A stretch of 64,000 nucleotides of DNA from Neoarius graeffei (Eukaryota; Chordata; Actinopteri; Siluriformes; Ariidae): assembly GCF_027579695.1 (NCBI RefSeq), contig NC_083590.1, forward strand, positions 21,161,610 to 21,225,609. The letters run 5' to 3'. Numbering within the stretch: position 1 is the stretch's first letter; each line of letters begins with the position of its first letter. This document shows, piece after piece, positions 34,875 through 56,395 of the stretch. Position numbers and translations under genes: made by a program. The notes under the pieces were generated by a model that saw nothing but the letters and a program-made list of their open reading frames with translations, was not told where the DNA came from and ran no database searches.

Positions 34875-35547
34875 AGTGCATATCACGGGTAAATTCAGGA
34901 GCAAGATCAGTGTAATTCTCCTATTTTATATTAAACTTTGGTCAAATATCTGTAACATTCTGCGCAATTTTTTTTACCTTGCGCAATACCAGAAAAATTC
35001 AGTTGAAATCAAGCCATTTGAGGCGAATTGGTCCGCCTCTGAAAAAACTCTGCATTTGGATTTCCTGGGAAACACTGATTTTCGTGACGTCGCGTGCGGG
35101 ACGCCTCCTTCTGAATCCTACGTCAGCGCTGGTTTGTTTATGAGAAAACGACCTGGTGGTTTTCTGCAAATTTCTTCAACGTTATCGCGTAATTATTAAA
35201 ATGGTTAACAGATGTATCGTAGGAGGGTGTAGAAACACCAATCTTGATGGGATTAGTACTCATCGTTTTCCAAAAGACCGGACAACGAGAGAGAAATGGG
35301 AGCGCTTGGTCTACACAGGCTGTGCACTGAAACCGTGCAAAGCTCGCGCAGCCTGCTGGCGCTTCCGCAGGTGACGTCACGAATCTGGCTCCAGACTCCC
35401 TTGGGATTTTTCCAGACGCGTTTTGTTATTTTATTTATTTTTTTCTGCTGTAGACAGATGGCCTTGTGCAAAATTACCCTTCTGGACGAGTGTGTAAAGG
35501 GACATACTTTCATAGAAAAAAAACAAAATTGGTCCAGAATATGCACT
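34875..35547 (+). mobile_element. TTAA-flanked element with THAP remnant (Kolobok-like), short form
   Basis: TTAA at 34871-34874 and 35548-35551; ends AGTGCATATCACGGG and the partner GAATATGCACT. The plus-strand ATG at 35201 opens MVNRCIVGGCRNTNLDGIST and continues HRFPKDRTTREKW, the first half of a THAP domain. At the codons after REKWER the sequence jumps to the non-coding 3' part that in the long copy starts at about 55855. The same junction occurs in the copy at 15828-16508, so this short form multiplied as such. Confidence 0.88.
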
Positions 35548-45967: not shown

Positions 45968-46019
45968 TAAGGGGTTATCCATAATTTTCATCATTATCAC
46001 GAGCATACAAACCGTATGC

Positions 46020-46052
<33 letters not shown>

Positions 46053-46100
46053 ACCAGGCGTACACTTTTTAAAAATGAAAAAATGATGATCTGTCAATTA

Positions 46101-46613
46101 CCCCTTTTCCACCAAATCAGTTCCAGGGCTGGTTCGGGGCTGGTGCTGGTTCACAACTCGTTCAACTTGCAAGCCAGCTGAGAACCAGTTTGCTTTTCCA
46201 TAGCTCACGGTGCTAAGGGAAGCCATGTCATTACGTCGCTGTATACGTCAGTTACGTCGCTACGTTTGCATAAACCTTGGCGCGAATATCGAACCAAAAA
46301 CAACGCGGAAGAAGCAGCAGCAGCAGCAACAACAATAATAATAATGGATGACTTCGCGTTTGTACAGCTGCTGCTTCTCGTCGCTTAAAAATGGCGATCT
46401 TTCGCGGTCTTGCTATTGTTGTCGGTCTTAACAACTCCGCCCCCCCGCTGACGTAAGCGGTTCTTTCCTCTGGCCCAGCAGAGAGTTGGTGCTAGCCTGG
46501 AACCGGTTTTTCTGGCCCCAGAGCCAGTTCTTTGTCAGTGGAAACAGGAAACCCGGTTCCAAACTAAGCACTGGCCCCGAACCAGCCCTGGAACTGCTTT
46601 GGTGGAAAAGGGG
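46101..46613. mobile_element. MITE with CCCCTTTTCCACCAAA ends
   Basis: Inverted ends of about 40 bp starting CCCCTTTTCCACCAAA and continuing CAGTTCCAGGGCTGGTTCGG on both sides. The flanks (TTA and CAA) do not match, so the duplication is unresolved. A (CAG/CAA)n and (TAA)n run sits near 46315-46344. No coding capacity. Confidence 0.85.
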
Positions 46614-46706
46614 CAAATGTGCGAATTGGCGGCCGCCATGTTAAAAATTTCACGCCACGTCGGTGTTGCCAGCTAGCTCTACACGCTTTCTTTCTTCAAT
46701 ACAACA

Positions 46707-47465
46707 ATGCCTGACCCAGATTTTGACCGCATTTACAAATTTGTGAATAGCAGAAATACCGTTATTCACAAGACTCCTTCAAACGAGTACGAGCAGTTTT
46801 CAAACGTTTATTGTTTCCTGCATTCATCTGAGAAGCGGCAGGAGGCGGTTAGGGCGGGACAGGCTGCTTGGAAAGAATCAAAAACAAACGTTTCAAAGGA
46901 AGCTGAACTGTGCCGGCAAGTGATCATCTGGATGGAAAAAGTCAAGTCGACTTTTACAATTCGGGATTATTTCTCTCGTAAAACGGTACGTAGGATATCA
47001 TATGAGGCGAGGTGGCCAAGTGGTTAGAGCGCTTGACCGCCAAGCGAACGGTCCCCGGTTCGAACCTCGCCTCGGACGGTGATCTGGGGCTCGCCTCCTG
47101 TCCACCCAGCAGTGAATGGGGACCTGGTGGAAACACTGGGGAAGTTAAAGGCGGCGAGGAAAGGAACTGGCCACCCTACCTCACCATGCCGACGGCCTAG
47201 ACAGAGTGTGCTCTCTAACAGGCACTCCCCAACGTACGTACGAAAACGTATATGGGACTCTTTGACTTTGAGGATATCATATGGGTATTTTGTACTTGCG
47301 TCAGCAGTCAGTTGAATTTTATACAGTCGGTCTTCTTTTCTTCCATTTCAGAATGAAAGTCCTGCACGACCAGCCCCAGCTCCAAAACTGGATTTCCTAC
47401 TGTTCATGAGGAGCCAAAAGGCAACAGCTCCCCTTAAAAAGACGGTCCTTGATTTTCAAAAATGA
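46707..47465 (+). CDS. Two-exon gene of unknown function in a transposon
   Basis: Exon 1 (46707-46985) runs from MPDPDFDRIYKFVNSRNTVI to TIRDYFSRKT and ends at ACG|GTACGT. Exon 2 (47352-47465) follows the acceptor TTCCATTTCAG and reads NESPARPAPAPKLDFLLFMR to KKTVLDFQK, then TGA. Both junctions are phase 0 and the frame stays open, giving 130 residues. AATAAA lies at 47556-47561, and AACATGGCGGCC-type sequence (reverse of 46627-46638) resembling a YY1 site lies upstream. I do not recognise the family. Exon 1 is mixed helix-like and charged; FTIRDYF followed by SRK is PIP-box-like but lacks the leading Gln. The gene has no stops or frameshifts, unlike every other transposon frame here. The intron has taken in a SINE without disturbing the splice sites. 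It could be an accessory protein of the element or a captured host fragment. Confidence 0.6.
47005..47270 (+). mobile_element. tRNA-derived SINE with 13-bp duplication
   Basis: Head GAGGCGAGGTGGCCAAGTGG, A-box TGGTTAGAGCGC, B-box GGTTCGAACC, then an unrelated body. The flank AGGATATCATATG occurs at 46992-47004 and 47271-47283. The first nine bases pair with CCTCGCCTC after the B box, so it is tRNA-like but not a proper tRNA gene. Confidence 0.9.
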
Positions 47466-47555
47466 ATCGCCTGCTTTCTATGAAAACTTCTGGAACCGTC
47501 TTACGTCTTCTTTTCTTCTCTTGTGAATCTTTGTATTGTCCCGTCATCCGATTTT

Positions 47556-47561
47556 AATAAA
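47556..47561 (+). terminator. Polyadenylation signal AATAAA
   Basis: About 90 bp after the stop codon of the two-exon gene, and inside the same transposon, in a TTTTAATAAAAAG context. Confidence 0.6.
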
Positions 47562-47721
47562 AAGTAATACAAGACATGGTTTTATTTTGAATTCCTATTC
47601 CACGTAGATCCATCATCATTTTTTTGTCCGCTAATGTACACTTTTGGGGGGGAGGGGGGTTGCTCAAAAGTCTACTCTTTGTAGACTCATGATAATGATG
47701 AAAATTATGGATGACCCCTAA

Positions 47722-50199: not shown

Positions 50200-51945
50200 A
50201 GGGAAGGGTGGCGGGCCAGAATTATAACGTGGTGGCGCGCCACTTTAAAAGCGCCTGTGGAGAACACTGATATTGAAAGCCGACACCTTGGAAGGAAAGT
50301 CCAGAATCGCCCACGGGCATTACAGGAAAATACTGCCCGCCAAGGAACCAATCAGAGCGCACGATTTTACTGCACGAATTATAACCTGGCGGTGCACCAC
50401 TTTAAAAGCACCCATGGAGAACACTGAAAAAATATTGAAAGCCGACACCTTGGAAAGAAAGTCCAGAATCGCCCACGGGTATTACGAGAAAATGGTGCCC
50501 GCCAAGGAACCAATCAGAGCACACGATTTTACTGCACGAATTATAACGTGGCAGCGCGCCACTTTAAAAGCGCCCGTGGAAAACACTGATATCAAAAGCC
50601 GACACCTTGGAAGGAAAGTCCAGAATCACCCACGGGCTTTACAAGAAAATACTGCCCGCCAAGGAACCAATCAGAGCGCACAATTTTACCACACGAATTA
50701 TAACGTGGTGGCGCGCCACTTTAAAAGCGCCCGTGGAGAACACTGAAAAAATATCGAAAGCCGACACCTTGGAAAGAAAGTCCAGAATCGCCCACGGGTA
50801 TTACGAGAAAATGGTGCCCGCCAAGGAACCAATCAGAGCACACGATTTTACTGCACGAATTATAACGTGGCAGCGCGCCACTAAAAGCGCCCGTGGAAAA
50901 CACTGATATCAAAAGCCGACACCTTGGAAGGAAAGTCCAGAATCACCCACGGGCTTTACAAGAAAATACTGCCCGCCAAGGAACCAATCAGAGCGCACAA
51001 TTTTACCACACGAATTATAACGTGGTGGCGCGCCACTTTAAAAGCGCCCGTGGAGAACACTGAAAAAATATCGAAAGCCGACACCTTGGAAAGAAAGTCC
51101 AGAATCGCCCACAGGCTTTACAAGAAAATACTGCCCACCAAGGAACCAATCACAGCGCACGATTTTACCACACAAATTATAACGTGGTGGTGCACCACTT
51201 TAAAAGCACCCGTGGAGAACACTGAAAAAATATCGAAAGCCGACACCTTGGAAAGAAAGTCCAGAATCGCCCACGGGTATTACGAGAAAATGCTGCCCGC
51301 CAAGGAACCAATCAGAGCACACGATTTTACTGCACGAATTATAACGTGGCAGCGCGCCACTTTAAAAGCGCCCGTGGAAAACACTGATATCAAAAGCCGA
51401 CACCTTGGAAGGAAAGTCCAGAATCACCCACGGGCTTTATGAGAAAATACTGCCCGCCAAGGAACCAATCAGAGCGCACAATTTTACCGCACGAATTATA
51501 ACGTGGTGGTGCACCACTTTAAAAGCGCCCGTGGAGAACACTGAAAAAATATCGAAAGCCGACACCTTGGAAAGAAAGTCCAGAATCGCCCACAGGCTTT
51601 ACGAGAAAATACTGCCCGCCAAGGAACCAATCAGAGCGCACGATTTTACCACACAAATTACTTTAAAAGCGCCCATGGAGAACACTGATATTGAAAGCTG
51701 ACACCTTGGAAAGACAGTCCAGAATCGCCCATGGGCATTACGGGAAAATACTACCTGCCAAGGAACCAATCAGAGTGCACGAGTTTATCGCACGAATTAT
51801 AACGTGGTGGCGTGCCACTTTAAAAGCGCCCGTGGAGAACACTGATATTGAAAACCGACACCTTGGAAAGAAAGTTACAGGAAAATACTGCCCGCCAAGG
51901 AACCAATCAGAGCGCACGATTTTACAAGAAGTAGCTCATGCCATA
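50200..51945 (+). repeat. ~159-bp satellite with CCAAT and palindrome motifs
   Basis: Eleven units marked by GACACCTTGG at about 50281, 50442, 50601, 50762, 50918, 51078, 51240, 51398, 51560, 51700 and 51857. Each has AACCAATCAGAGCGCAC, ATTATAACGTGG, a GTGGCGCGCCAC-type palindrome, CTTTAAAAGCGCCC and CCCGCCAAGGAACC. Unit types alternate: GAACACTGAAAAAATAT versus AACACTGATATCAAAA. One late unit (near 51655) lacks the palindrome part. In-frame runs of up to 172 codons arise because the unit length is divisible by 3; each unit type carries stops in other phases, so coding is not supported. Confidence 0.92.
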
Positions 51946-54866: not shown

Positions 54867-54976
54867 TGAATTAAATCCTGGATGGTATTTATTTATTGAT
54901 TGCTCTTCTTTCTTTCTTACATGGTATATTAAAGATACTGTATCCTTGCGGGGCGGCACAGTAGTGCAGTGGTTAA

Positions 54977-56102
54977 AGTGCATATCACGGGTAAATTCAG
55001 GAGCAAGATCACTGTAATTCTCCTATTTTATATTAAACTTTGGTCAAATATCGGTCACATATTGCATTTTGTGCAATTTTTTTTTACCTTGCACAATACC
55101 AGAAAAATTCAGTTGAAATCAAACCATTTAAAGCGAATTGGTCCGCCTCTGAAAAAACTTGGCATTTGGATTTCCCGGCAAACATTGATTTTCGTGATGT
55201 CGCGTGCGGGATGCCTCCTTCTGAATCCTACGTCAGCGCTGGTTTGTTTATGAGAAAACAACCTGGTGTTTTTCTGCAAATTTCTTCAATGTTATCATGT
55301 AATTATTAAAATGGTTAACAGATGTATCGTAGGAGGGTGTAGCAACACCAGTCTTGATGGGATTAGTACTCATCGTTTCCCAAAAGACCGGACAATGAGA
55401 GAGAAATGGGAGCTCTTCGTGCGAGGCACCCGGAAAAACTGGCTACATGCTAAAGACTACAGCATTATTTGCGGTGCTCACTTCACAAGGCCCGACGACT
55501 TTGAGAACTATTTGCAGTGGGAAATGGGCTTCGTGAGACAACTTGATCTGAAAAAAGACACAGTTCCATCTATCAGAATGCCCAAAGCAACACCGTCTCC
55601 ATCTGTGTCAGCGTCACCAAAGGAGCCAGCTGTGTTCGTCTCCCCTGACAGAAGGTGAAGTGCTGCATCCACTGAGGCCCTCGAAGCCAAGGACCAAGCA
55701 GAGCCAAGAAAAAGACGAAGAAAATCAGCAATTCGCAAGTTGACTGTTGCCAGAGTAAGAAATAATTCTGGCATCTCATTATATTCTTCATGCAAAGGTG
55801 AAGTAACATTGCGCTCAGGTGACAATTCCATATTTCAATGCAAAATCGCTAGCTGCTAAACTTGGTCTACACAGGCTGTGCACTGAAACCGTGCAAGCTC
55901 GCGCAGCCTGCTGGCGCTTCCGCAGGTGACGTCATGAATCTGGCTCCAGACTCCCTTGGGACTTTTCCAGACATGTTTTGTTATTTTTTTTTTTCTGCTG
56001 TAGACAGATGGCCTTGTGCAAAATTACCCTTCTGGATGAGTGTGTAAAGGGACAGACTTTCATATAAAAAAACAAAACTGAAACTGGTCCAGGATATGCA
56101 CT
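54977..56102 (+). mobile_element. TTAA-flanked THAP element (Kolobok-like), long form
   Basis: 1126 bp between TTAA at 54973-54976 and 56103-56106; ends AGTGCATATCACGGG and the partner CAGGATATGCACT. The uninterrupted V-SINE around it shows directly that TTAA was duplicated. It keeps a complete THAP domain (next entry) and shares both end regions with the short forms at 15828-16508 and 34875-35547. Confidence 0.93.
55311..55858 (+). pseudogene. THAP-domain transposon protein, truncated
   Basis: The ATG at 55311 opens MVNRCIVGGCSNTSLDGIST, HRFPKDRTMREKW, ICGAHF and DTVPSI. This gives a full C2CH THAP zinc domain (Cys5, Cys10, Cys and His of CGAHF, conserved Trp and Pro, AVPTIF-like box) in about 90 residues. 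The frame stops at 55656-55658 after 115 residues. In the next frame the sequence continues SAASTEALEAKDQAEPRKRR, a basic nuclear-localisation-like stretch, to a stop at about 55856-55858, so a frameshift lies near 55655. THAP domains bind DNA and serve as the DNA-binding part of P and Kolobok transposases. The catalytic part is missing, so no transposase can be made; a DNA-binding fragment is conceivable. Confidence 0.82.
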
Positions 56103-56395
56103 TTAACACTGCTGCTGCACAGTAAGAAGGTTCTGGGTTTGAACCTCACAGCCTTTCTGTGTGGAGTTTGCATGTTCTCTGCATGGGTTTCCTCCCACAG
56201 TACAAAGACATGCACACTAGATAAAATCCCCAGCTACTGAGGTTGCACAAGCCAGTATATACTTAGTGCAGGTCCCAAGCCCAGATAGGTTTCGGGAGGG
56301 TTGTGTCAGGAAGGGCATCCAGTATAAAACCTATACCAAATCAAATCAGTGGAACAGATCCTCTATGGCGACCCCTAACACATACTTGCCAACCC

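Follow-up and report, generated by a model that had tools for sequence, protein, structure and literature searches.

A spliced two-exon frame in Neoarius graeffei is most probably debris of a Zator-like transposase on a non-autonomous transposon

A stretch of 64,000 nucleotides of Neoarius graeffei DNA (contig NC_083590.1, positions 21,161,610 to 21,225,609; hereafter the window) contains a spliced, two-exon reading frame lying on a transposon. Is this frame a gene in its own right? An earlier note had read it as one, of unknown family, and perhaps an accessory protein of the element or a co-opted gene. Exon 1, which corresponds to the N-terminal head of a transposase described below, has 93 codons from its ATG (46707-46985, plus strand). 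It is followed by a phase-0 intron (46986-47351, plus strand), with the donor GT at 46986 and the acceptor AG at 47350-47351, and by exon 2 (47352-47465), whose 37 codons and TGA complete a joined frame of 130 aa. An AATAAA polyadenylation signal is found at 47556-47561 on the same strand, in a 3′ stretch common to the longer elements of the family. These features had already been noticed and were reconfirmed, as was the lack of a DDE motif in the 130-aa frame. The chance of 130 open codons arising at random is about 0.0004, given this base composition and taking any one frame by itself. Among 70 aligned copies, the donor GT is present in 50 of the 51 having letters there and the acceptor AG in 44 of 44. 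An open two-exon frame is also kept in four other sampled copies (L006, L009, L023 and L024), in two of them with in-frame gaps.

The element carrying the frame spans 45968-47721 and is bounded by TAA target-site duplications at 45968-45970 and 47719-47721 (neither with a strand), which bears out the TAA-target carrier proposed earlier. Its terminal inverted repeats are about 41 bp long and 90% matching; the left one begins with GGGGTTATCCATAATTTTCATCATTATCA (45971-46011, plus strand) and the right one lies at 47678-47718 on the minus strand. The whole element sits within another palindromic repeat, the second arm of which represents the unoccupied site. Two further sequences have inserted into it. 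The first is a separate MITE with CCCCTTTTCC termini located upstream of the frame (46099-46615, no strand assigned); its bounds follow from comparison with the empty site of L004, L009, L012, L016 and L018, from which it is missing. The second is a SINE of 267 bp in the intron (47005-47271, plus strand), flanked by perfect 12-bp duplications (GGATATCATATG) at 46993-47004 and 47272-47283 and missing from the paralogue L009, pointing to a later insertion. The SINE or tRNA-like label was assigned by eye, and neither ARAGORN nor Rfam gave a match to this segment. As previously remarked, the frame is still open after this event. The window intron measures 366 bp because of the SINE; minus the SINE and one duplication it is 87 bp, the same size as in L009. 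Just upstream of the frame, at 46632, lies GCCGCCATGTT, a YY1-like string that is also present in L004, L009, L012, L016 and L018.

Searches with the 130-aa protein itself were of little help. Pfam returned one match, below cut-off (E 0.057), PDB returned none, and no relative of the protein or of the terminus was found among viral and prokaryote contigs. AlphaFold models of the head show helices throughout at low confidence, with a mean pLDDT of 54.9 from the single sequence and 54.2 from an 8-row alignment, which is too poor for a fold search.

The host genome (2.34 Gb, 38 contigs) contains other copies. At least 156 matches to the 130-aa protein were obtained, a lower bound, as the best candidates alone were scored; a few of the matches overlap. 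Loci were taken from these matches in sets of 30, then 20 larger, 20 more and 8; L036 and L037 duplicate places already sampled, and L031-L035 show L005, L013, L030, L029 and L010 in a wider view. Exon 1 and the intron recur in L032 and L033, where they continue into open frames of 776 and 721 codons, respectively; these frames pass through NESPARPAPAP(AP)KL or NESPAQPAPAPKL at the very point where the window exon 2 starts. Indeed, the first 13 codons of the window exon 2 (47352-47390, plus strand; NESPARPAPAPKL) are common to the transposase exon 2 of the long copies. The 776-codon frame carries, in this continuation of exon 2, a DDE triad assigned by motif (D475, D592 and E636, with 43 residues between D592 and E636). 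Since exon 1 and the intron of the longer copies lead into DDE frames, the supposed gene is, judging from these alignments, the first ~106 residues of a probably Zator-like transposase joined to a 24-residue tail; a gene of unknown family is no longer needed to account for it. The parent gene would consist of exon 1 with the 93-aa head and, beyond the intron, a long catalytic exon; its last exon would end in what appears by eye to be a C2H2-like motif.

At least six genomic places (C3, C4, C8, C10, C24 and C29) retain the bulk of the catalytic exon, and three further ones retain part of it (C21, C16 and C4:116.2 Mb). None of the six long places looks intact. Five show stops or split frames; in L032 the start codon is not the usual one, and the sequence retrieved did not reveal a right terminus. 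Three of the 7 copies counted as long (L002, L021 and L029) are themselves shortened. Among 43 distinct places checked, both termini were located in 28, and in 27 of these the TWA duplications are identical (17 TAA, 10 TTA), L046 being the one with unmatched duplications. Two long copies, L033 and L035, have both termini and matching TWA duplications.

The catalytic frames were compared with profile libraries. The sole NCBIfam match is the ISAzo13 transposase, with E values of 3.7e-5 (L032), 3.9e-4 (L033) and 4.5e-3 (L035), and Pfam PF07592 follows, under its cut-off, with 0.0022, 0.035 and 0.17, respectively; two unrelated DUFs are also matched by L035 in Pfam at comparable values (E 0.15 and 0.2). 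The 776-aa frame has no match in PDB, and tblastn against plasmids gave nothing better than E 1. According to passages in the literature, Zator resembles ISAzo13, both making 3-bp duplications (PMC10045372), has been linked to TP36 (PMC7386202), is treated, like TP36, as a separate clade near IS630 (PMC8533490), and is annotated in other fish, including a seahorse (PMC9851323). The present family shares with Zator/ISAzo13 (TP36) the 3-bp target duplication and a catalytic region whose only significant match is ISAzo13; it differs in that its head falls in no Pfam family above cut-off and in that the likeness passes through the ISAzo13 profile, not through a Zator protein. Because the ISAzo13 scores fall far short of the thresholds set by curation (22.9 of 200 bits; 17.5 of 26.9), the Zator name, although likely, is probable at most. 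The main text of a fish mobile-element review (PMC7599744) makes no mention of Zator, and our literature search found nothing on Zator with DD43E. The long relatives make up a Zator-like family whose head domain is named by none of the libraries searched.

A distant relative shows that this head is not confined to one family. L071 (C22; 1291-1581, minus strand) is a divergent, broken relative of the transposase head plus exon 2. Its head exon is 43% identical to the family head (tblastn, E 6e-14), its donor lies at the same place and in the same phase, the acceptor reads TTTCAG, and its exon 2 resembles the transposase exon 2 (29%, E 5e-12). Since L071 keeps the head, the intron position and a transposase-like exon 2, the head is tied to transposase genes beyond a single family.

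How did the short copies lose the catalytic part? When compared with the short paralogue L009 (932 bp), the long copies L031, L033 and L035 match it from position 1 to 498-608 and again over the last ~163 bases. The segment between, L009 609-769 (161 bp, encoding the tail and the first part of the 3′ UTR), was not found on the plus strand in any of the seven loci examined for it, all of them long or derived from long copies, which indicates that the tail (47391-47465 in the window with its stop, plus strand) came with the rearrangement. In a window-type short copy, the stretch from exon 2 codon 14 to shortly before the polyA signal would have been swapped for ~160 bp of other sequence, and what is left would be a frame that can still be spliced, made up of 106 residues from the transposase and a 24-residue tail. 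The tail string KKTVLDFQK resembles, by eye alone, KKTIVDLFQK of L071. KP of the P element and Ds are non-autonomous deletion derivatives of this kind, in which the termini and a 5′ part of the gene are kept and the catalytic part is lost. As with KP/Ds, the short copies retain termini and the 5′ gene part, lack the catalytic part and are many for each long copy; here, however, the stretch after exon 2 codon 13 is replaced by ~160 bp that supplies a new short tail.

Further variants occur among the copies. A fold-back insert in exon 2 is common to 19 of 71 loci. In 12 of the 71 (L038, L046, L047, L050, L065, L070, L072-L076 and L078) the head breaks off near codon 64 and is joined to the tail, after which comes a further MITE starting with CAGACCCTCCAGG. 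Frame-breaking changes found in several copies include a +8 insertion (4 copies), a +1 in an A run (7) and a stop at codon 58 (4). A tree built from the copies gave no clear order for these kinds.

Overall, 45968-47721 is very probably a non-autonomous, internally rearranged deletion derivative of a Zator-like (ISAzo13-related) DDE transposon, with a frame that is debris and is not kept. The short element has the termini and duplications of the long coding copies L033 and L035 and is missing the catalytic exon. Short copies would be mobilised in trans by the long-copy transposase acting on the common termini. Any head peptide that is produced would be devoid of the catalytic part and not needed.

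Whether the frame is kept can be judged from the substitutions. For this purpose 75 copies were aligned to L009 and 5 duplicates were dropped, leaving 70 distinct copies, of which 43 short copies, each retaining no fewer than 255 of the 279 bases of exon 1, form the main set. The neutral N/S of 2.58, to which the ratios below refer, was calculated on non-coding sequence of these copies, with CpG, transition and transversion classes. In the main set, private changes amount to 59 N, 24 S and 4 stops (ratio 0.95, 0.58-1.60), changes common to at least 3 copies to 20 N and 8 S (0.97, 0.41-2.54), and all cells to 170 N, 71 S and 6 stops (0.93, 0.70-1.24). The terminal branches of the seven long or long-derived copies drift too, as their private N:S of 23:9 gives a ratio of 0.99. 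Exon 1 is open in 23 of the 52 copies whose exon 1 3′ end is uncut, small gaps being allowed. The ranking of the genome matches by protein similarity favours open, conserved copies and therefore works against finding neutrality. No purifying selection was detected on the frame in the 43 short copies or in the window copy alone. Relatives with stops and frameshifts and an N:S near neutral are largely what was found, an outcome that the earlier note had itself named, together with a missing spliced transcript, as speaking against a gene.

That the window copy is open most likely reflects how little it has drifted so far (3.2% from the family majority over 931 bases), and not retention. When the sister copies of a young transposon copy drift, an open spliced frame on it, even with clean splice sites and a polyA signal, is no evidence of function. 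What stands of the earlier interpretation is a spliced frame, with no DDE of its own, on a TAA-target transposon; the candidate new gene is removed from consideration and explained as transposase debris.

The truncated KP protein blocks the full transposase of P elements, and by analogy the head-only peptide could be a working trans-acting regulator that retains the N-terminal domain of the transposase and blocks the full enzyme. We consider this unlikely. Such a role would be consistent with the large excess of short copies over the six long places (both counts being lower bounds), with the conservation of the head in L071 and with the presence of splice signals and AATAAA. In addition, over codons 1-64 of 20 other copies, the all-cell count of 40 N to 27 S lies under the neutral expectation (ratio 0.58, 0.35-0.98; p 0.029), and it is on account of this ratio that the regulator is rated no lower. 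However, all-cell counts enter inherited changes once per copy, and for this reason the ratio is given little weight; in the same 20 copies private changes stand at 21 N to 6 S (ratio 1.36) and shared ones at 4 N, 4 S and 1 stop. The neutral pattern of the 43 short copies, which extends to variants carried by at least 3 of them, also argues against a regulator, as do the frame-broken versions that several copies have in common. Finally, about half of the 156 matches listed, counted by hand, end at residue 64-66, and in those that were read the head is fused to the tail in another frame.

A more elaborate version deserves mention, although we hold it to be decidedly improbable: the transposase of a Zator-like lineage would possess an undescribed N-terminal head, probably helical and with a clamp-binding-like TIxDxF motif at its end, and head-only peptides from the many deletion copies would damp transposition in trans, perhaps via PCNA.

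The PIP-like string pointed out earlier is real as far as TIRDYF is concerned, T84, I85, D87 and F89 being kept in L071 (T-I-x-D-x-F), but it is a feature of the transposase head. PIP boxes have been reported in pogo-type transposases (pogo, Tigger), according to a passage of PMC5371812. The TIxDxF string resembles these by eye; it has no Q at position 1 and lies at the end of exon 1. By analogy, clamp binding by the parent transposase is conceivable.

It is very improbable that the element belongs to PIF/Harbinger and that its accessory protein went unrecognised. The TWA target duplications and the short, G-starting inverted termini fit this superfamily as characterised in PMC4482050, but neither the 130-aa frame nor the catalytic frames of L032, L033 and L035 show any Myb/SANT or Harbinger DDE match, and the frame runs on into an ISAzo13-like catalytic exon. 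Our literature search found nothing joining Harbinger to PCNA or the PIP box, or to an accessory protein together with PCNA.

Co-option of the window copy alone as a host gene is hardly credible: its 130-aa frame is open despite two insertions into the element, but both fall outside the frame, 8 of the 12 exon 1 substitutions separating it from the short-copy majority are protein-changing (ratio 0.78, 0.21-3.52) with no sign of constraint, and L006, L009, L023 and L024 have open two-exon frames as well.

The window contains other repeats. The earlier statement that all other transposon frames in it are broken does not hold, as an element with a TTAA duplication and AGTGCATATC termini, which we take to be a Kolobok, lies inside a SINE-like repeat at 54973-56106 and carries an open THAP-domain frame (ATG at 55311, stop at 55656-55658; Pfam THAP, E 8.5e-13). 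A second THAP-like frame, starting MVNRCIVGGC, is located at 35201 and meets a stop after 57 codons. Finally, a tandem array of about 9 copies of a ~162-bp unit occupies 50219-51875, with one frame open for 165 and 185 codons.
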